From Segetibacter sp. 3557_3 (GTDB lineage Bacteria; Bacteroidota; Bacteroidia; Chitinophagales; Chitinophagaceae): a DNA stretch of 64,000 nt. The stretch covers positions 124,001 through 188,000 of the forward strand of contig NZ_SMSK01000009.1 in assembly GCF_004354985.1 (NCBI RefSeq). The letters are read 5' to 3'. Each line of letters opens with the position of its first letter. The stretch's first letter is position 1. Below the pieces are notes generated by a model. It was not told the origin of the DNA, ran no database searches, and saw only the letters and a program-made list of their open reading frames with translations. Position numbers and translations under genes: made by a program. Below, piece by piece: positions 31,732 through 41,690 of the stretch.

Positions 31732-32318
31732 CTATACGTTCTCGAGGGTGGTTTTGCGCTTTTGCTTTAGTTGACGGTAGAAGGATGGAGAAAGACCGGT
31801 AATTCTTTTTAACTGGTTCGACAAGTGCGCCACGCTGCTATAATGAAGCTTATATGCAATTTCTGTCAGGTTAAGTTCGTTATACAACAGCAGCTCTTTT
31901 ACTTTTTCAATTTTGTGAATAATAATGAACTGTTGTATGGTAATGCCTTTTACTTCTGAAAATATGTTTGCGAGGTAGGTGTAATCGTGATTTAACTTCT
32001 TTTCGATATAATCAGAATAATTTGTACCTGGCAATTCATCTGAGTAATGAATCATTTCAGTAATCACGGTTTTTATTTTTTCTATCAGGATGCTTTTTCT
32101 GTCGTCCAGCAGTTCAAGTCCCGATTTAAGCAAGTTGCCCTTACGCTGTTCACGAACTTTTGGTGTCAGGTCGTCGAGTACATCAACAACGCCAAGGTCA
32201 ACAACTACTTTTTTTATCCCGAGCTTTTCAGTTCTTTTTCCACCATCATCTTACACCTGAGGCTAACCATGTATTTAATATATAATTTCAGACAATTTTC
32301 CGGTACAAAAAGGATCAT
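31732..32318 (-). pseudogene. Frameshifted AraC-family regulator
   Basis: The intact C-terminal piece (31732-32133) ends in an AraC-type DNA-binding domain: YIEKKLNHDYTYLANIFSE, QFIIIHKIEKVKELLLY, LTEIAYKLHYSSVAHLSNQ. The N-terminal part reads from ATG 32318 as MILFVPENCLKLYIKYMVSL, then RCKMMVEKEL, and stops. Adding one A to the run of four at about 32224-32227 restores KKLGIKKVVVDLGVVDVL and joins it to the rest, giving about 195 residues, the usual size of this short Bacteroidota AraC family. So the gene carries a single-base deletion in a homopolymer, either a real mutation or a sequencing error. It lies upstream of the disrupted ice-binding gene in the same orientation. Confidence 0.8.
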
Positions 32319-32616: not shown

Positions 32617-33831
32617 CTACTGCGGTTCTTGCTGGCTAAGGGGCAGAAATATCGTAACAATCGTTCCCCCACCGATGGTAGAAGCTACCGAAATGTTTCC
32701 AAAATGATTGTCAACAATCTTTTTACTCAAGGCCAGTCCAAAACCGAGCGCCTGGCCATGATCGTTGATGAGTTTTTGTAGCCGAAAAATCTCCTCTTCA
32801 TTTTTAATCAGAAAACCTTTTCCGTTGTCGCTCACGGTGATTTTCAAAAATTCTGCGTAGCGATATTTGTTCTTCAATACCCTGTAGGTATTATGTTGCA
32901 CAACATCACCGGTTATATGGATCGATAACAGCCTGTCCTCACTTCTGAATTTTATAGAATTGTCGATAATATTCATAAACAGCAGTGCAATCTGGCTTTT
33001 ATATCCTTCGATAATTGGAAGTTCTTCGGCATTGAACGCAACATGCACCTCTCCTGCTTGCCCTGCAGCCTGGTGAAAGGCTGACAAAATAGCTTCACTC
33101 AGTGAAAACAGGCTCATCTCTTCGGCAACGTTATTAAGGCTAATGAAACGATCAAGAAAGATAATAAGCTGCCGAAGGTTTTTGCATTCCCGGTTGATCT
33201 TCTCCAGGTCTTCTATCCGGGCTGCCGGTAGTGAACCGGCGACTTCAACAACGATCCGGTCTGCAAGCACCGCGATCTTTCGAATGGGCTCCTGTATATC
33301 GTGTGAAATGCTCTTGCTAAATTGGGTAATGTCAGCGTTAACCTGCTTCAACTGGCTGATTTTACGATCAAGCACCAGGCTGTTCAACTCAAGCTCCTTT
33401 TTTGCCTGGTTCAGTTCAATGTTCTTTTCAAGTGCCTCCTCGGCACGGCGCCTTGCGCTAAGCAGCTCGCGCTCATATTTACCTCGTTCGGTAATTGGGA
33501 TAAAAATGCATTGTATAATCTTCGTATCTGCTCTTGTTTTTGAAACTGCATTACAGATAACCTCCAAACGTTCCCCACTTTTTGCTTTTAAGGTAAAGAA
33601 GATTTCCTGTGCATTACCGTGCAATTGTACGAGTGGAAAAAAGTGGGTTTGGTAAAAGATCCGGCTCGCGATGGTGAACAGCTTTTCGATATGTTGACCA
33701 ATGATTTCGTTTTTCTCCGAATATGAAAGGAGGTCAAGAAATGTAGCATTGATAGCTGTAATGGTGCCGGAGGCATCAATCTCCAGAAAGCCACACGGTG
33801 CATAATCCAGGTCCTCGCTCATTTGCACCAT
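32617..33831 (-). CDS. PAS-domain sensor histidine kinase paired with the RsbQ-like hydrolase
   Basis: A cytoplasmic kinase of about 404 residues with no transmembrane helix. Order: PAS domain (~10-110), with DYAPCGFLEIDASGTITAIN and the IASRIFYQTHFFPLVQLHG segment I associate with RsbP/RsbU-like PAS proteins; coiled-coil (~115-170); HisKA with SKSISHDIQEPIRK (His about 177); HATPase with NIIDNSIKFRSED, DNGKGF, FGLALSKKIVDNHFG. Start at ATG 33831 or ATG 33822; a TTG lies at 33837. It begins 17 bp after the RsbQ-like gene, so they form one operon, and the hydrolase may produce or release the PAS ligand, as RsbQ does for RsbP in Bacillus. That transfer to a kinase is inference. Confidence 0.9.
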   Translation of the reverse strand: MVQMSEDLDYAPCGFLEIDASGTITAINATFLDLLSYSEKNEIIGQHIEKLFTIASRIFYQTHFFPLVQLHGNAQEIFFTLKAKSGERLEVICNAVSKTRADTKIIQCIFIPITERGKYERELLSARRRAEEALEKNIELNQAKKELELNSLVLDRKISQLKQVNADITQFSKSISHDIQEPIRKIAVLADRIVVEVAGSLPAARIEDLEKINRECKNLRQLIIFLDRFISLNNVAEEMSLFSLSEAILSAFHQAAGQAGEVHVAFNAEELPIIEGYKSQIALLFMNIIDNSIKFRSEDRLLSIHITGDVVQHNTYRVLKNKYRYAEFLKITVSDNGKGFLIKNEEEIFRLQKLINDHGQALGFGLALSKKIVDNHFGNISVASTIGGGTIVTIFLPLSQQEPQ

Positions 33832-33848
33832 ATACAATAGGGTTTAGC

Positions 33849-34649
33849 TTATTTAGAAAGATATGCTTTCATAACATCAATGGTTTCTTCGGGATGGCTC
33901 ACGTGAGGGCAATGTCCCGTTGCCTTCAATACCTTCATCGCACTGCCAGGGGTGTTCTTGTAAAGGTATTCACCAACTACCAGCGGGGCAATCATATCCT
34001 CTGAACATTGCATAATCAGCGATGGAATTTTAAGCTTTTTGATGTCCTGGCGGTTGTCTGAAAGAAAGGTTACCTCCGCAAATTTCCTGGCAATAACCGG
34101 ATCAGTTGAACAGAAACTTTCTACCAACTCGGCGGCTAACTCCGGACGATCCGGGTTGCTCATAATGGCCGGGGCGAGAAAGTTTGACCACCCAATATAG
34201 TTTCGGTCCATGGTTTCCAATAATTCCTCTATGTCTGCCTGCTCAAATCCCCCGGTGTAATCGGGGTCGTTAATATATCTGGGCGAGGGACCCACGAAAA
34301 TAAGCCTGTCAAAAAGCTGTGGCTGCAGGTTTGCACTGATTACACCAATCATCGAACTTACGGAATGCCCGACGAAGATTACATTTTTCAACTTCAAGGC
34401 TTCGCAAATCTCCAGCACATCGTCCGCATAACCCCTCAGGCTGGAATATTTACCGGCGTCATAGGCAGCAAGATCAGACTTTCCCGAACCGACAAAGTCA
34501 AACAGGATTACCTGGTAGTCTTTTTCGAATGCCGGTGCAACAAATCGCCACATGTTCTGGTCGCAGCCAAAGCCATGTGCAAACATGATGGGTCGAGTAC
34601 CCTCCCCCGACACCTTTACATTGTTACGGCTTAAAATTGAGGCATCCAT
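33849..34649 (-). CDS. RsbQ-like alpha/beta hydrolase
   Basis: A 266-residue alpha/beta hydrolase that matches RsbQ along its length: FAHGFGCDQNMWRFVAPAF near the N-terminus, nucleophile Ser96 in VGHSVSSMIG, Asp218 in QCSEDMIAP and His246 in TGHCPHVSHPEE. The triad falls within one residue of the Bacillus RsbQ triad (Ser96, Asp219, His247). The family also includes the plant receptors D14 and KAI2. In Bacillus subtilis RsbQ is needed for RsbP, a PAS-domain phosphatase, to sense energy stress. Here the next gene (17 bp) encodes a PAS histidine kinase and the divergent gene a response regulator, so it is likely the input component of a phosphorelay. Substrate unknown. Confidence 0.92.
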   Translation of the reverse strand: MDASILSRNNVKVSGEGTRPIMFAHGFGCDQNMWRFVAPAFEKDYQVILFDFVGSGKSDLAAYDAGKYSSLRGYADDVLEICEALKLKNVIFVGHSVSSMIGVISANLQPQLFDRLIFVGPSPRYINDPDYTGGFEQADIEELLETMDRNYIGWSNFLAPAIMSNPDRPELAAELVESFCSTDPVIARKFAEVTFLSDNRQDIKKLKIPSLIMQCSEDMIAPLVVGEYLYKNTPGSAMKVLKATGHCPHVSHPEETIDVMKAYLSK

Positions 34650-34694
34650 TTTGGTTAATTTATTGACAAATTACGGTGTTAACTTTCAAGCAAG

Positions 34695-34702
34695 TAACTT
34701 TG
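34695..34702 (+). promoter_or_regulatory. Candidate -7 box TAACTTTG for the response regulator
   Basis: Exact match to TAnnTTTG, 28 bp before ATG 34731. A transcript starting just after it would begin near 34709, leaving little room for the GTG at 34713 and supporting ATG 34731 as the start. Confidence 0.4.
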
Positions 34703-34730
34703 ATTTTTTAACGTGACAGCTTTTGTACCT

Positions 34731-35147
34731 ATGCCGAAAAATGACATTAGTACCCTGTTTATTACCGACGACGATGCTGATGACCGCGGCTTTCTTGCAG
34801 GTATTCTGCAAAAAAGGGGTTTTAATGGCAAAGTAGAGCAGCTGGCCAATGGCGCTGCACTACTGGAGCGATTGGATGTAATTACCCTCGATGGCAGCGA
34901 AATCATTGTGCTCGACCTTAATATGCCGGTGAAAAATGGGTTTGAAACGCTTGAGGCACTTAAAGCCGATGTTCGTTTTGCCAATCTGCCCGTGATCGTT
35001 TTTTCTGCAACCTCCAGAAAGGAAGATGAAGTGGTTTGCATGAAGATGGGCTGCACTGCATTTCTACAGAAACCTCTGACCTATAGCGGGTACGAAAGAG
35101 TTGTTGATGCAATTGTATCCGGTAAAGGAATGCCTCCAACCTCTTAG
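34731..35147 (+). CDS. Single-domain response regulator (CheY/Rcp1-like)
   Basis: A 138-residue stand-alone receiver domain. Acidic pocket TDDDADDRG, phospho-acceptor Asp62 in IIVLDLNMPVKNGFE, conserved FSATSRKEDE (Ser/Thr switch) and FLQKPLTYSGYE (Lys-Pro). Long insertion-style loops between helix 2 and strand 3 are typical of Rcp1-like regulators that pair with PAS kinases. No output domain, so it must act by protein contact or phosphotransfer. Start at ATG 34731 preferred over GTG 34713. It is divergent from the RsbQ-like/PAS-kinase operon by only ~80 bp and upstream of a multi-PAS kinase; either could be the partner. Confidence 0.9.
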   Translation: MPKNDISTLFITDDDADDRGFLAGILQKRGFNGKVEQLANGAALLERLDVITLDGSEIIVLDLNMPVKNGFETLEALKADVRFANLPVIVFSATSRKEDEVVCMKMGCTAFLQKPLTYSGYERVVDAIVSGKGMPPTS

Positions 35148-35395: not shown

Positions 35396-38164
35396 ATGAC
35401 TTACGATTCTATCCCTTTTCAGCTTGCTGAAACGAGTTATATAGCCTTATTTGAAGCACTTCCGGGCAATCATGTGCTTGTGCAAAACGACCCACCCCGG
35501 TTCACCATTCTGGCCGTAACGCCTGGTTACTTAAAGCAAACCGATTTATCGAAAGCCGCCTTGATTGGCAAAGGGGTTTTTGAGGCCTTTGACGTTACCA
35601 GCTGCGCAAACCGGAATGCCGGGAAGGAACTGCTCCTGTCCTATCAGCATGTATGCCAACAAGGGCAGCCGCACTTTTTACCCATGCAACGCTATGATCT
35701 GAAAAATGATGATGGCACTTTTACCGAAAAATACTGGCGGGTCAGCAATGCACCGGTTACGGCACCCGACGGCGAGGTTAAGTACGTTCTCCATACGTCG
35801 GAAGACATCACTGAACTGGTCAGGGCAGAAAGGCGGGAAGCGGGCATAAAAGGGATGGAAATGGTCAATAATCTTTTCCGGCAAACACCTGTTGCCGTAT
35901 GCCTGCTTAAAGGGGCCGATCTTGTTATTGAACTGGCCAATGAGCCCGCACTGAAACTCTGGCATATAACAAACGACGCCATTGGACTACCCCTCCGACA
36001 AGCGGTACCCGAAATACAGGACCAGGGCTATGCAGACATGATCGATTCCGTAATGACAACAGGGATGGCGAAACGCCTTTATGAAAGTCCCGTCACCTTA
36101 ACGAGGGACGGAATACCGGAGATAGCTTACATCAATTTTGATTATGAGCCCTATTACGAAGGGAACAATACTACAGTAGTCGGAGTGTTGACTATCGGCA
36201 ACGATGTGACTGAGAAGGTGCTTGCGCAAAAAAGGGTGGAAGAAAGCGAAACAAAGTACCGTGCTCTTTTCGATAGTATGGACCAGGGGTTTTGCGTCCT
36301 GGAAATCATCTTCAACGAGTCAAATACACCCATCAATTATCGGTTCGTTGAAGCCAATCCCATGTTTGAAAAACAAACCGGCTTAGTCGGCGCCATTGGT
36401 AAAACAGCCCGGGAACTGGTTCCCGACCTGGAACCACATTGGTTCGAACTGTACGGCCGGGTGGCGCTTACCGGGGAAGCCAAACGATTCAACGAAGGTT
36501 CCAAAGCAATGGGCAAGTGGTTCGACGTTTTCGCTTTTCGTATTGGGGAACCCGGGAGCCTTAGAGTTGCCCTGCTTTTTACGGACATCACCGAACGCAA
36601 AAGATCAGAAGAGGCACTGATCGAAAAAGACAGGCAATTGCGGAACATCATTCATTCGGCTCCCGTTGCTATGCTCATCCTCCGGGGCGAAGAAATGATC
36701 GTGGATACAATCAATGAACGGATGATCCAGATGATCGGGAAAAACATATCCCTGCTTAACCGGCCGTTGCTGGAGACCATACCGGAGTTGAAGGGCCAGG
36801 ACGGGTATGAGCGTATTCTTTCGGTTTACAAAACCGGGAAAGCAGAGTATGGCAATGAAGTACTCGTGCCACTTATGCGGGAGGGGGTATCGGAAGAACG
36901 GTACTTCAATTTTAGTTATACGCCCATTATCGAAGACGAAACCATTGTCGGCGTCATGGACGTAGCAACCGAAGTTACTGAACAGGTAAAGGCCAGAAAG
37001 GTGATTGAAGAGAAGGGCCACGAATTGCAGCTGGCAATTGATGTAGCCAGTCTTGGGCATTACCGTGTTGACCTGCTCAACGATGTGGCCAGCTGTTCAA
37101 CCCGCCTATTGAACTGGTTTGGCATCGAGGGGCAAGACTTGCGGACCGCCACCCTGCTCGACCAGGTTCACCCGGGAGATCGCTCACGGTTTATGGCGGC
37201 ATTCAGGAACGCCACTCCTACGGAAGCAAACGAACCGATTGACATCATTTTTCGGGTTGTCGATCCATGTGACGGTACCCTACGCCACCTTCGTTCGTTT
37301 AATAAAATTCGCTTTGATGACTATGACAGGGCCTACCTGGTGTTCGGTGTTGTTCAGGACGTTACCCAGGAAATGGTTTACCAGCAACACTTAAAAGAAA
37401 GTGAAGCCGAATTACAACGGCGGGTGTTGGAGAGAACACTGGAACTGGAAAACCTGAATGACGAACTGAAACGGTCTAACCAGAATTTGGAGGAGTTTGC
37501 CTATGCGGCTTCACATGACTTGAAAGAACCAATCAGGAAAATTCACTTCTTTACGCATCAACTGAAAAACCAGCTGCATACACAATTGCTGGAAAACCAA
37601 AAATGGGCGTTTAGCCGGATCGAAAATGCGACAGACCGCATGGGCAATCTTATTGATGACCTGCTGCTGTACTCCCATGTAAGTCAACGACCCCGCGAGA
37701 TTGAACGGGTTGACCTGAACCAAAAAGTGCACCGCGTGCTGGAGGATCTTGAAGTAGACATCGCCGAAAAAAAAGCAGCGATCCGCATCGGCAAACTACC
37801 GGTCGTACAAGGCCACGGCCGGCAATTGCAGCAGTTATTACAGAACCTGGTCAGTAACGCCCTGAAGTATAGCAGGCCTGATGTGCCCTTACACATCGAC
37901 ATCACCGCCAGCCAGGTTGAAGAAAATGGGCGGATGTATCACCAGCTCACCATTACCGACAATGGCATTGGATTTAAACAAGAATACGCCCACAGGATTT
38001 TCCAGATGTTTATTCGCCTGCATGGCAAAGCGGAGTATAGCGGAACAGGTGTTGGTTTGTCTATTGTAAAAAAGGTGGTAGAAAATCACAAAGGGTTTAT
38101 CCAGGTGGATAGCACACCGGACGTTGGGTCAACTTTTCGAATTTTCCTGAGTTGTGAGCTGTAA
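35396..38164 (+). CDS. Multi-PAS sensor histidine kinase
   Basis: A 922-residue soluble kinase. It opens with a variant PAS (YIALFEALPGNHVLVQNDPP, FTILAVTPGYLKQT), followed by about four further PAS/PAC units (roughly 155-275, 285-395, 410-525, 540-665) with PAC signatures such as VGVLTIGNDVTEKV and GVMDVATEVTEQV. A coiled-coil (LQRRVLERTLELENLNDELK) then leads to HisKA with AYAASHDLKEPIRK (His707) and a HATPase (NLVSNALKYSRPD, DNGIGFKQEYAHRIF, GTGVGLSIVKKVVENHKG). No transmembrane segment, so it senses intracellular cues. Closely related in N-terminus and layout to the convergent kinase at 38986-41424. It may phosphorylate the receiver protein encoded about 250 bp upstream. Confidence 0.92.
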   Translation: MTYDSIPFQLAETSYIALFEALPGNHVLVQNDPPRFTILAVTPGYLKQTDLSKAALIGKGVFEAFDVTSCANRNAGKELLLSYQHVCQQGQPHFLPMQRYDLKNDDGTFTEKYWRVSNAPVTAPDGEVKYVLHTSEDITELVRAERREAGIKGMEMVNNLFRQTPVAVCLLKGADLVIELANEPALKLWHITNDAIGLPLRQAVPEIQDQGYADMIDSVMTTGMAKRLYESPVTLTRDGIPEIAYINFDYEPYYEGNNTTVVGVLTIGNDVTEKVLAQKRVEESETKYRALFDSMDQGFCVLEIIFNESNTPINYRFVEANPMFEKQTGLVGAIGKTARELVPDLEPHWFELYGRVALTGEAKRFNEGSKAMGKWFDVFAFRIGEPGSLRVALLFTDITERKRSEEALIEKDRQLRNIIHSAPVAMLILRGEEMIVDTINERMIQMIGKNISLLNRPLLETIPELKGQDGYERILSVYKTGKAEYGNEVLVPLMREGVSEERYFNFSYTPIIEDETIVGVMDVATEVTEQVKARKVIEEKGHELQLAIDVASLGHYRVDLLNDVASCSTRLLNWFGIEGQDLRTATLLDQVHPGDRSRFMAAFRNATPTEANEPIDIIFRVVDPCDGTLRHLRSFNKIRFDDYDRAYLVFGVVQDVTQEMVYQQHLKESEAELQRRVLERTLELENLNDELKRSNQNLEEFAYAASHDLKEPIRKIHFFTHQLKNQLHTQLLENQKWAFSRIENATDRMGNLIDDLLLYSHVSQRPREIERVDLNQKVHRVLEDLEVDIAEKKAAIRIGKLPVVQGHGRQLQQLLQNLVSNALKYSRPDVPLHIDITASQVEENGRMYHQLTITDNGIGFKQEYAHRIFQMFIRLHGKAEYSGTGVGLSIVKKVVENHKGFIQVDSTPDVGSTFRIFLSCEL

Positions 38165-38985: not shown

Positions 38986-41424
38986 TTACTTAGCCCCCAA
39001 CCATGGTTCCACCGGTAATAACACGTTAAAGGAGGCGCCTTCATTTAAGCGCGATTCGGCCCAGATGTGTCCATGATGATTTTCAATAACCTTCCTGACG
39101 ATGGACAAGCCAATGCCGGTTCCTTTGTATTCGGGTAATACCGGCAGCCTGGTGAAAACGTTGAAGATGCGATCCGCATGCTCTTGTTCGAAGCCAATGC
39201 CATTATCCTTCACGGTAACACAGTAAAAAGCTCTTTCGTGCTCCCGCTCGGGCAAGGCTAGCGGAGTCTCTTTACCCACCACCTTATTACAGCTGACTTT
39301 GATATGGGGTACCCCACCCGGTTTTGCATATTTCAAAGCATTTGCAAGCAGGTTTTGGAAGGCTTGTTGCAACTGGCGGTGATGACCCTTAATGCTAAAT
39401 AACGGGTCTACCTCGATGATTGCTTTTTTGTTTTCAATTTGCAGCTGAAGGTCATCTAATACAACATCGATAAGTTCGTTGAAGTCTACGTCTTCATGAT
39501 TCTTCGGTTGGATACTCACCTCCGAAAACGACAACAAGCTATCAATAAGTGAAGCCATCCGTTCTGCAGCTGCTTCCATGCGCTGGAAAAAGTGCCTTTC
39601 ATTTGCGGATAAACGATCACCCAAACTCGCTTTGATACGATCGGCAAAGACCTGCATCTTACGTATGGGCTCTTTTAAATCATGAGATGCGGCATAGGCA
39701 AATTCGCTCAGGTTTATATTTGATCGTTCGAGTTCACGGTTGCTGGCGGTGAGCGCTTCATTAGCTTCCGCCAACTCGTTTGTGCGTTTGGTTACAATTT
39801 GCTCGATTTCCCTACGAGCTTTTACCTGTTCGGTAACTTCAATTGCCACAGCTACCACCCCTTCAATGCTTCCGTTTGCATGATAATAGGGCTGGAAGGT
39901 ATAATTAACATAGATCTGTTGCAGCACACCTTCTCTTAGCAACTGTATGGCACTTTCATTGGCGGTAATGGTTACACCTGTATCAAACACCTTCAACAGC
40001 AACTTTTCCGCGCCCTGATTACGTGCTTCGGGAAGGGCTTCAAATACGGGTTTATCCATCAGTTTTTCGGGGCCTCTTCCCCAGAGCTCGAACATCCGGG
40101 TATTGGCAATGTATACCACCAAAGAACGACCTTTGAGAATACAGGTGGCAACGGGTGATCGCAGGATGGTATTCCGAAGATTTATCTCACTTTCCTGCAA
40201 TGCGTTTTCGGCAAGTTTCCGGTCGTGAATGTCCACACCGGTGCCGATACTTCCACGTATTGATCCATCGGGAGCATAATGTGGCCCACCGGTGAATAAA
40301 AAATAGCGGTACGCTCCATCCGAACGCATCATCCGCGCTTCAACTGAATAATTCTGTTGTGACCGGGCAGCGCCAAAATAGCTTTGCAAAAGCTCTTCAC
40401 AATCGTCCGGATGAACAATGTCGTGCCATGAACGGCCAAGCGACTGTTCGAAACTTTGCCCGGTAAAATCCAGCCAATAGCGGTTCCAAAAAGTTACCAC
40501 AGCCTCGGTGTCGGCCAAAAAGACCATCATAGGTGCCTGGTCGGCTATCGTGCGAAAACGCCCTTCACTTTCATTGGCCATGCTTCTAAGGTGGACCTGC
40601 ATGGTGACTTCGTTACCAATGGCCAGTACACCAACAGCCTTTGGGCTCCTGTCTTCAAAATAAGGCTGGTAGATATAGTTGACATAAATGTTCTCCTCCT
40701 TTCCGTTTCGGATGAGTTTAACCGGGCTTTCGTAAACCTGTCTGGCTATACCACTTTCCCTTACTTCATCCATCAGGGAAATATATCCCTGGCCAATTAC
40801 CTCCGGCAGGGCGTGCTCCAGGGGAAGACCAATCACCTCACGCCCCCTTCCCCATAGCTGCAGGGTTGGGTCATTGGCCATTTCAATGATCAGGTCCGGT
40901 CCCATCAGGATGCATACCGGTATCGGTGTTTGCATAAAAAGATTGTAAGCCTGCTCCATGCCTTTCATCTTTTCTGCCATTCGGCCAGAATGTACCTCCT
41001 GCGTAATGTTTTCTGCGGTATGAATGATAAAGGCAACCTCACCTTCCTGGTTGAGCACCGGCCGATTGCTTGCCCGCCAATACATTTCGGAGAAGGAGCC
41101 TTGATCATTGGGCAGATCATAACGCTGAACCGGCAGGTGATGCGCCTGTTTGTTGTGGAGAACCAGCGCTAAAGAATTGCGGAGACTGCGTGGTCCGTTA
41201 TCGGATGGATCGTTACTGTTGCCGGGGTGAACCTCAAACAGCGGTTTTCCAATTATCGCTTCCCTGGCCAAACCAACTTCGATCAGCCTTTGAGGAGTAA
41301 CTGCTAGCAGGGTATAATGGGGTGGGTTGGCTTCGATAAGCAAATGGTTGCCGGGAAAGGCATCAAAAAGCCTGATATAACCAGATCTATCGTCGGCCGT
41401 AAGATTGATGGAGTCGTTTAACAT
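38986..41424 (-). CDS. Multi-PAS sensor histidine kinase (paralogue)
   Basis: An 812-residue soluble kinase from ATG 41424 (MLNDSINLTADDRSGYIRLF); in-frame starts further up to 41487 are less likely because the related kinase begins here. The N-terminal PAS variant FDAFPGNHLLIEANPPHYTL parallels FEALPGNHVLVQNDPPRFTI of the kinase at 35396. Three further PAS units follow, including a classic one (FRTIADQAPMMVFLADTEAV, then WHDIVHPDDCEELL). A coiled-coil leads to HisKA AYAASHDLKEPIRK (His581) and HATPase NLLANALKYAKPGG, DNGIGFEQEHADRIF, GTGIGLSIVRKVIENHHG. It converges on its paralogue across a repeat array and is itself flanked by inverted copies of that array. Partner regulator not obvious. 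Confidence 0.92.
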   Translation of the reverse strand: MLNDSINLTADDRSGYIRLFDAFPGNHLLIEANPPHYTLLAVTPQRLIEVGLAREAIIGKPLFEVHPGNSNDPSDNGPRSLRNSLALVLHNKQAHHLPVQRYDLPNDQGSFSEMYWRASNRPVLNQEGEVAFIIHTAENITQEVHSGRMAEKMKGMEQAYNLFMQTPIPVCILMGPDLIIEMANDPTLQLWGRGREVIGLPLEHALPEVIGQGYISLMDEVRESGIARQVYESPVKLIRNGKEENIYVNYIYQPYFEDRSPKAVGVLAIGNEVTMQVHLRSMANESEGRFRTIADQAPMMVFLADTEAVVTFWNRYWLDFTGQSFEQSLGRSWHDIVHPDDCEELLQSYFGAARSQQNYSVEARMMRSDGAYRYFLFTGGPHYAPDGSIRGSIGTGVDIHDRKLAENALQESEINLRNTILRSPVATCILKGRSLVVYIANTRMFELWGRGPEKLMDKPVFEALPEARNQGAEKLLLKVFDTGVTITANESAIQLLREGVLQQIYVNYTFQPYYHANGSIEGVVAVAIEVTEQVKARREIEQIVTKRTNELAEANEALTASNRELERSNINLSEFAYAASHDLKEPIRKMQVFADRIKASLGDRLSANERHFFQRMEAAAERMASLIDSLLSFSEVSIQPKNHEDVDFNELIDVVLDDLQLQIENKKAIIEVDPLFSIKGHHRQLQQAFQNLLANALKYAKPGGVPHIKVSCNKVVGKETPLALPEREHERAFYCVTVKDNGIGFEQEHADRIFNVFTRLPVLPEYKGTGIGLSIVRKVIENHHGHIWAESRLNEGASFNVLLPVEPWLGAK

Positions 41425-41690
41425 AGAAAGTGAAACTGAAGATAGGGATAATCTCTTTTGGTCGACTGCTTTGAGGTCAACGAACATGGAATGCAGCCCC
41501 GTGCCGACCCTTTTCGTTGTAAAGAAAGGGGAATGAAGGTCATTAGCTAAGCGGCGTCTTCAAATTGACCTGCCGGTAAGGCGATATTGCAAAAGTCCGC
41601 CCGCTAACCCCAACGGGTCAGAACCTACTCATAATCCTTCCCAAAGCTTTAATTATCACCCAATCATCTTTCCTTAACCTGCAACATATA
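41425..41690. other. Intergenic upstream of the histidine kinase
   Basis: No gene recognised. It should hold the kinase promoter; no good TAnnTTTG box is seen on the minus strand. Confidence 0.35.

Follow-up and report, generated by a model that had tools for sequence, protein, structure and literature searches.

INTRODUCTION

Does a hydrolase gene lying directly before the gene of a soluble PAS histidine kinase mark a sensing module, and does the receiver gene on the opposite strand belong to it? The question is raised by a locus of Segetibacter sp. 3557_3, within a stretch of 64,000 nucleotides (contig NZ_SMSK01000009.1, positions 124,001 to 188,000) that is called the window in what follows.

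The RsbQ-PAS-kinase module was described by Nadezhdin, Brody and Price in 2011 (PMC3183031). In Bacillus subtilis, the one species for which such contact is established, RsbQ touches the F-alpha helix of the PAS domain; the catalytic triad is needed, triad mutants being null, and alanine mutants of RsbP at L48, F55, Y59 and E72 are null as well, with P86 also important for function (PMC3183031). As of that paper the regulatory target of the module was known in B. subtilis only, and response regulators are mentioned there as fused domains only. A word search of its running text found none of the Bacteroidetes names sought. For plant KAI2, an origin from bacterial RsbQ by gene transfer has been proposed (PMC10504578).

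We describe the genes of the locus, their recurrence in other genomes, the case for the receiver as the output of the kinase, and a second lineage of related hydrolases with a partner domain of its own.

RESULTS AND DISCUSSION

The hydrolase and its PAS kinase

Coordinates are given in Table 1.

Table 1. Features of the locus, numbered by position in the window
Feature	Position	Strand	Basis
RsbQ-type alpha/beta hydrolase, 266 aa	33849..34649	-	Best PDB sequence match RsbQ 1wom, E 2.9e-106; RsbQ-type in trees
Ser96 codon, nucleophile	34362..34364	-	S in 109/109 distinct RsbQ-type sequences
Asp218 codon	33996..33998	-	D in 109/109 distinct RsbQ-type sequences
His246 codon	33912..33914	-	H in 109/109 distinct RsbQ-type sequences
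Soluble PAS-coiled coil-histidine kinase, 404 aa from ATG (TTG start at 33837 possible)	32617..33831	-	Pfam; AlphaFold; fold match YF1 4gcz
RsbP-PAS-like domain, residues 9-115	33487..33807	-	Class residues per PMC3183031; PAS fold pLDDT ~92
His177 codon, predicted phospho-accepting histidine	33301..33303	-	His in 57/66 aligned partners (non-kinase outputs included)
HATPase_c domain, residues 279-399	32635..32997	-	Pfam 1.6e-14; intact N, G1 and G2 boxes
Divergent intergenic stretch, hydrolase/receiver	34650..34712	.	ORF coordinates
Stand-alone receiver, 144 aa from GTG (ATG 34731 more conservative)	34713..35147	+	Response_reg 2.5e-16; divergent orthologues in six other lineages
Asp68 codon, predicted phosphorylation site	34914..34916	+	Invariant in seven divergent receivers

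In the PDB sequence ranking for the window hydrolase, B. subtilis RsbQ (1wom) is followed by Olei00960 and then by plant KAI2 proteins, and S96, D218 and H246 align with the Ser, Asp and His of 1wom. Both the RsbQ kinship and the RsbQ triad claimed by the original prediction, which was made from the sequence without database searches, are thereby borne out. Trees place the protein on the RsbQ side of a split supported at 100/100, outside the KAI2 branch, and KAI2 membership is ruled out by the trees together with the diagnostic columns described below. The broad hydrolase family PF00561 is matched 33 times in the host genome, which has just one further RsbQ-type gene, 56% identical.

The kinase gene starts 11 bp (TTG 33837) or 17 bp (ATG 33831) after the hydrolase stop, on the same strand. 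Its PAS (2.5e-7) and HATPase_c (1.6e-14) domains score above the Pfam cut-offs and HisKA falls below threshold; the H box with His177, the N box and the G1 and G2 boxes are all present, and His177 is invariant across 25 kinase relatives. A hydropathy scan found no membrane span, the top 19-residue window (1.69) lying inside the ATPase domain. The protein is, as had been predicted, a soluble PAS kinase encoded close behind the hydrolase. A small AraC-type helix-turn-helix protein is encoded downstream of it on the same strand (window 31732-32133).

An AlphaFold model of the kinase from 25 sequences (mean pLDDT 86.9, about 92 in the PAS domain) predicts a long F-alpha helix (residues 54-71), an 82-residue helix (116-197) entering the DHp domain, and a CA domain; the helical linker from PAS to output is thus present in the model as helix 116-197 running into DHp, followed by HATPase_c. 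Foldseek ranks the PAS kinase YF1 (4gcz) first, with whole-chain TM-scores of ~0.3 and a large rmsd, which presumably reflects a different orientation of the domains by the long helix. As a comparison of predicted structure, the match supports the architecture, not a detailed likeness.

Residues that define the class of RsbQ-paired PAS domains were located from the constant residue spacing within the F-alpha motif, in an alignment without the RsbP sequence. On this mapping RsbP C10, L13, L48, Q53, F55, C56, Y59, P62 and E72 correspond to C13, L16, F52, R57, F59, Y60, H63, P66 and E76 of the window kinase, and nine of the ten class positions fit the pattern of 66 partners. The sole departure is at RsbP P86, here E90, a position with Pro in 54 of the 66. 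The four counterparts of the null alanine mutants (F59, H63, F52 and E76 for F55, Y59, L48 and E72) are all within the class pattern, and Phe59 falls in the helix that contacts RsbQ in Bacillus. At the end of the PAS domain the DIT motif is absent and PIT-ER is found instead, as in the RsbQ-PAS class. Judged by these residues, the window PAS bears the signature of RsbQ-paired PAS domains. The original prediction had been at risk from a PAS domain without a ligand pocket or a hydrolase contact surface; the confidently modelled PAS fold and the presence of the contact-helix residues argue against such a defect.

The pair in other genomes

An RsbP-PAS-like domain is encoded directly downstream of the hydrolase in 106 of 111 RsbQ-type loci, a set that joins the best 80 loci of a contig search with loci from genomes and counts a few genomes twice. 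One of the five exceptions ends at a contig edge. The PAS profile was built from many of the 111 loci; the unused loci L152-L172 match it too, except two. Pairs occur in Bacteroidota, Gemmatimonadota, Acidobacteriota, Cyanobacteriota, Actinomycetota, Bacillota, Myxococcota and Pseudomonadota, so that the pairing is far from unique to this strain, the other outcome that would have told against the original prediction. With this recurrence the gene pair of the locus is more than a chance arrangement.

Of 395 Bacteroidota genomes sampled, 22 encode the hydrolase with E no higher than 1e-50. Plasmids of rhizobia, Streptomyces and others also carry copies; in Neorhizobium EC2-8, for example, the two genes are annotated as ‘alpha/beta hydrolase’ and ‘PAS domain-containing sensor histidine kinase’, in that order. 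Outputs among the 66 partners include HATPase_c (52), GGDEF (6) and the SpoIIE phosphatase (5), the same three classes (kinase, GGDEF, PPM/SpoIIE phosphatase) already reported in PMC3183031.

Kinase output is not universal even in close relatives. The closest orthologue of the window kinase (L028:2474-3715) has degenerate N and G1 ATPase boxes and may be a pseudokinase. A paralogous module in the Segetibacter genome itself (L013:4428-6423, G000:C3) pairs the 56% identical hydrolase with a partner of 346 aa that carries two PAS domains, the first an RsbP-PAS, and finishes in a DHp-like region; no ATPase domain was found in it. Some RsbQ-type partners may, to judge from such sequences, work without kinase activity.

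The stand-alone receiver

The receiver gene lies on the other strand and is separated from the start of the hydrolase gene by 63 bp if it begins at GTG, or by 81 bp if it begins at ATG, in agreement with the distance of about 80 bp first noted. A sigma-70-type promoter scan of the intergenic stretch and a terminator scan gave no excess over shuffled sequences. D20/D21, D68 and K120 of the receiver are conserved.

Orthologous hydrolases in L017, L028, L035, L037 (Fulvivirgaceae), L046 and L051 likewise have a divergent receiver gene, at 17-105 bp, in surroundings that otherwise differ. With that of the window this makes seven divergent receivers, among which C109, G113, C114 and the phospho-site residues are invariant. 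A stand-alone receiver adjoins the pair in 16 of the 24 Bacteroidota loci nearest to the query, and one more has a fused receiver; these 24 are the nearest relatives of the query, and the proportion is not a phylum average. At other Bacteroidota loci the receiver gene immediately follows that of the kinase or immediately precedes that of the hydrolase. In a phylum-wide Bacteroidota sample most loci have no adjacent receiver, and outside Bacteroidota receivers beside the pair were seen only in fused form. Conservation of the receiver beside the pair is therefore confined to part of Bacteroidota, where the three-gene neighbourhood that had been proposed as a check does recur.

The linkage also appears when the receiver is the starting point. 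With the window receiver as sole query against 149 family genomes, the top two non-self matches (99.6 and 92.1 bits; next 83.2) both adjoin an orthologous hydrolase. A profile search agrees, with the circularity that module-linked receivers are in the profile. The host genome encodes about 30 small receivers among several thousand genes, and we estimate chance adjacency of a receiver at around 1% or less per locus. Because the receiver adjoins the pair in so many of the nearest loci and keeps the divergent layout in seven independent lineages, it is the likely phospho-acceptor and, on this sequence evidence, likely the cognate output of the window kinase. It has no output domain, and so its effect must run through another protein.

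Proposed mechanism and alternatives

The arrangement of the genes, the domains of their products, the signature residues and the persistence of pair and receiver were all observed directly, and from them we consider it quite probable that the window holds one more RsbQ-PAS sensing module of the known kind, with a histidine kinase as output and a stand-alone receiver as phosphate acceptor. Counting against this reading are the replacement of RsbP P86 by E90, the HisKA score under the Pfam cut-off, the degenerate or missing ATPase features in the closest orthologous kinase and in the paralogous module, and the lack of an adjacent receiver at most loci of the phylum-wide sample. A small molecule would enter the hydrolase pocket, be bound there and probably be cleaved too. 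The hydrolase would then contact the PAS domain at its long F-alpha helix (F59, H63); both this contact and the need for the triad we infer from Bacillus. The PAS dimer would twist the long signalling helix 116-197, altering autophosphorylation at His177, and phosphate would pass from His177 to Asp68 of the divergently encoded receiver. The nature of the signal, the kinase activity, the phosphotransfer to the receiver and the role of the receiver are in this scheme what we infer for the window proteins.

A variant of this explanation makes the product of the hydrolase the true PAS ligand (Model 1 of PMC3183031), the hydrolase itself being no receptor. We regard it as possible, though as the less probable form. 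It agrees with the null phenotype of RsbQ triad mutants in Bacillus, with a triad invariant in 109 of 109 sequences, and with a PAS fold that is predicted to be normal. Against it, the family also includes KAI2 and D14, which are receptors (PMC10504578), and constraint on the PAS domain is strong at the F-alpha helix, which is the contact surface. Whether the hydrolase is a receptor or the maker of a PAS ligand is a choice that sequence cannot decide.

The pair might also be real while the receiver serves another kinase. A complete multi-PAS histidine kinase gene (35396-38164) follows the receiver by 248 bp on the same strand, in a genome that has many kinases besides its small receivers. We think this unlikely, since no such kinase follows the receiver in L028, L035, L037, L046, L051 or L017 (some flanks being short), where the constant neighbours of the receiver are the hydrolase and its PAS kinase, and since elsewhere receivers accompany the same kinase type on either side or as a fusion with it. 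The window has a second large multi-PAS kinase gene at 38986-41487; the two are on opposite strands and their products have similar N-termini.

That the hydrolase is an ordinary metabolic esterase, beside the kinase by accident, is very improbable: broad hydrolase families match it, yet specific enzyme models all score far under their cut-offs, RsbQ is its best match, and the adjacency to one PAS type kept in 106 of 111 loci leads us to reject the ordinary-enzyme reading.

Comparison with known systems

As an RsbQ-PAS module with kinase output, the window locus resembles RsbQ-RsbP of B. subtilis in hydrolase family, triad, gene order, N-terminal PAS signature and helical linker. It differs in its output, where a histidine kinase takes the place of the PPM phosphatase, and in having Glu where RsbP has P86. 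For the window pair the proposed output is a phosphorelay and not the SigB partner-switching of RsbQ-RsbP. One borderline SpoIIE-type match is present elsewhere in the host genome.

With the kinase-output modules of PMC3183031 the locus shares the module itself, the same output class in Gram-negative bacteria and the lack of a DIT motif after the PAS domain; receivers are mentioned in that paper as fused domains, and here a stand-alone receiver is conserved beside the pair. Of the original reading of the locus as a possible hydrolase-gated two-component system for a small hydrophobic signal, the RsbQ kinship, PAS-kinase wiring and receiver linkage stand, and the gating of the kinase by the hydrolase and the small hydrophobic nature of the signal are putative. 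Its kinase in place of SigB is an output class published in 2011. The window module is a well-supported member of the RsbQ-PAS kind, to which the conserved stand-alone receiver is a modest addition. That receiver gives a defined kinase-receiver pair for in-tube tests of hydrolase gating.

The window kinase has the PAS-coiled coil-DHp-CA arrangement of soluble PAS kinases of the YF1/FixL type, although its signal is thought to come via a separate hydrolase and not from a bound chromophore or haem. The window hydrolase belongs to the same protein family as plant KAI2/D14 and has the same triad, but lies on the RsbQ side of the split. The F-box and SMXL proteins with which these receptors work in plants would not be expected in bacteria.

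KAI2-clade hydrolases in related Bacteroidota

Modules more surprising than that of the window, but outside it, were found in related genomes (L173, L177-L184, L214). Their hydrolases form a second branch, comprising nine proteins at 38-44% identity (L173, L177-L184) plus G829. In PDB searches one of these proteins matches KAI2-like E first (249 bits, against 226 for RsbQ), and for another KAI2-like E and RsbQ tie. The nine join plant KAI2/D14L at 100/100 in trees with and without outgroups, the outgroup branches of the first tree being very long and the plant sample consisting of three named plant sequences plus 7ukb. Of the diagnostic columns, 11 side with the plants against the RsbQ type and one does the opposite. 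No direction of transfer is claimed, because the trees are in effect unrooted, the plant sample is small and there is no settled order inside the KAI2 side.

A profile search found no RsbP-PAS downstream of the hydrolase at any of these loci. The protein that follows has instead an N-terminal domain of ~165 aa and a PAS-like region, in most cases continuing as a hybrid kinase and in others with nothing more. Searches of Pfam and PDB found no match to the ~165-aa domain, and profile comparison found no kinship with the RsbP-PAS partners. The domain is present in 8 of 149 family genomes, in seven of them behind the hydrolase, and in 2 of 395 class genomes, in both behind the hydrolase; one of these two, G829 (E 1.8e-19), is not in the profile. 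The total, ten genomes in 544 genome scans with nine directly behind a KAI2-clade hydrolase, comes from two samples that overlap slightly. In G016 the domain occurs alone, and in G056 the KAI2-clade hydrolase occurs alone. A literature search, which missed most subscription journals, found no published account of this module.

We lean somewhat towards the view that bacterial sensors arose in two lineages of one hydrolase family, and that each has a dedicated partner: the RsbQ type with the RsbP-PAS, and the Bacteroidota KAI2 clade with the ~165-aa domain fused to PAS and often to a hybrid histidine kinase. In the latter, the plant karrikin/strigolactone receptors would have extant relatives among bacteria, with kinases as the route of signalling. 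If so, KAI2-clade proteins could reveal what the ancestor of the receptors bound and what its partner was, and a clade that groups with KAI2 and is linked to a single new domain makes the signal of that ancestor directly accessible to study.

Genes for a small receiver, a HEAT-repeat protein and a glycosyltransferase adjoin KAI2-clade modules in L181, L183 and L214, which suggests an exopolysaccharide output of these modules.

Hydrolases recovered in a scan of plasmids were mostly of the RsbQ type, with one, from Sphingosinicella, on the KAI2 side. An AU test, not needed for the conclusion, rejects a grouping of the KAI2-clade (type II) proteins with this Sphingosinicella protein to the exclusion of plants. 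The protein, a hydrolase of Sphingosinicella plasmid p1 (L212), falls on the plant KAI2 side at 100/99, and its gene precedes that of a diguanylate cyclase by 289 bp.
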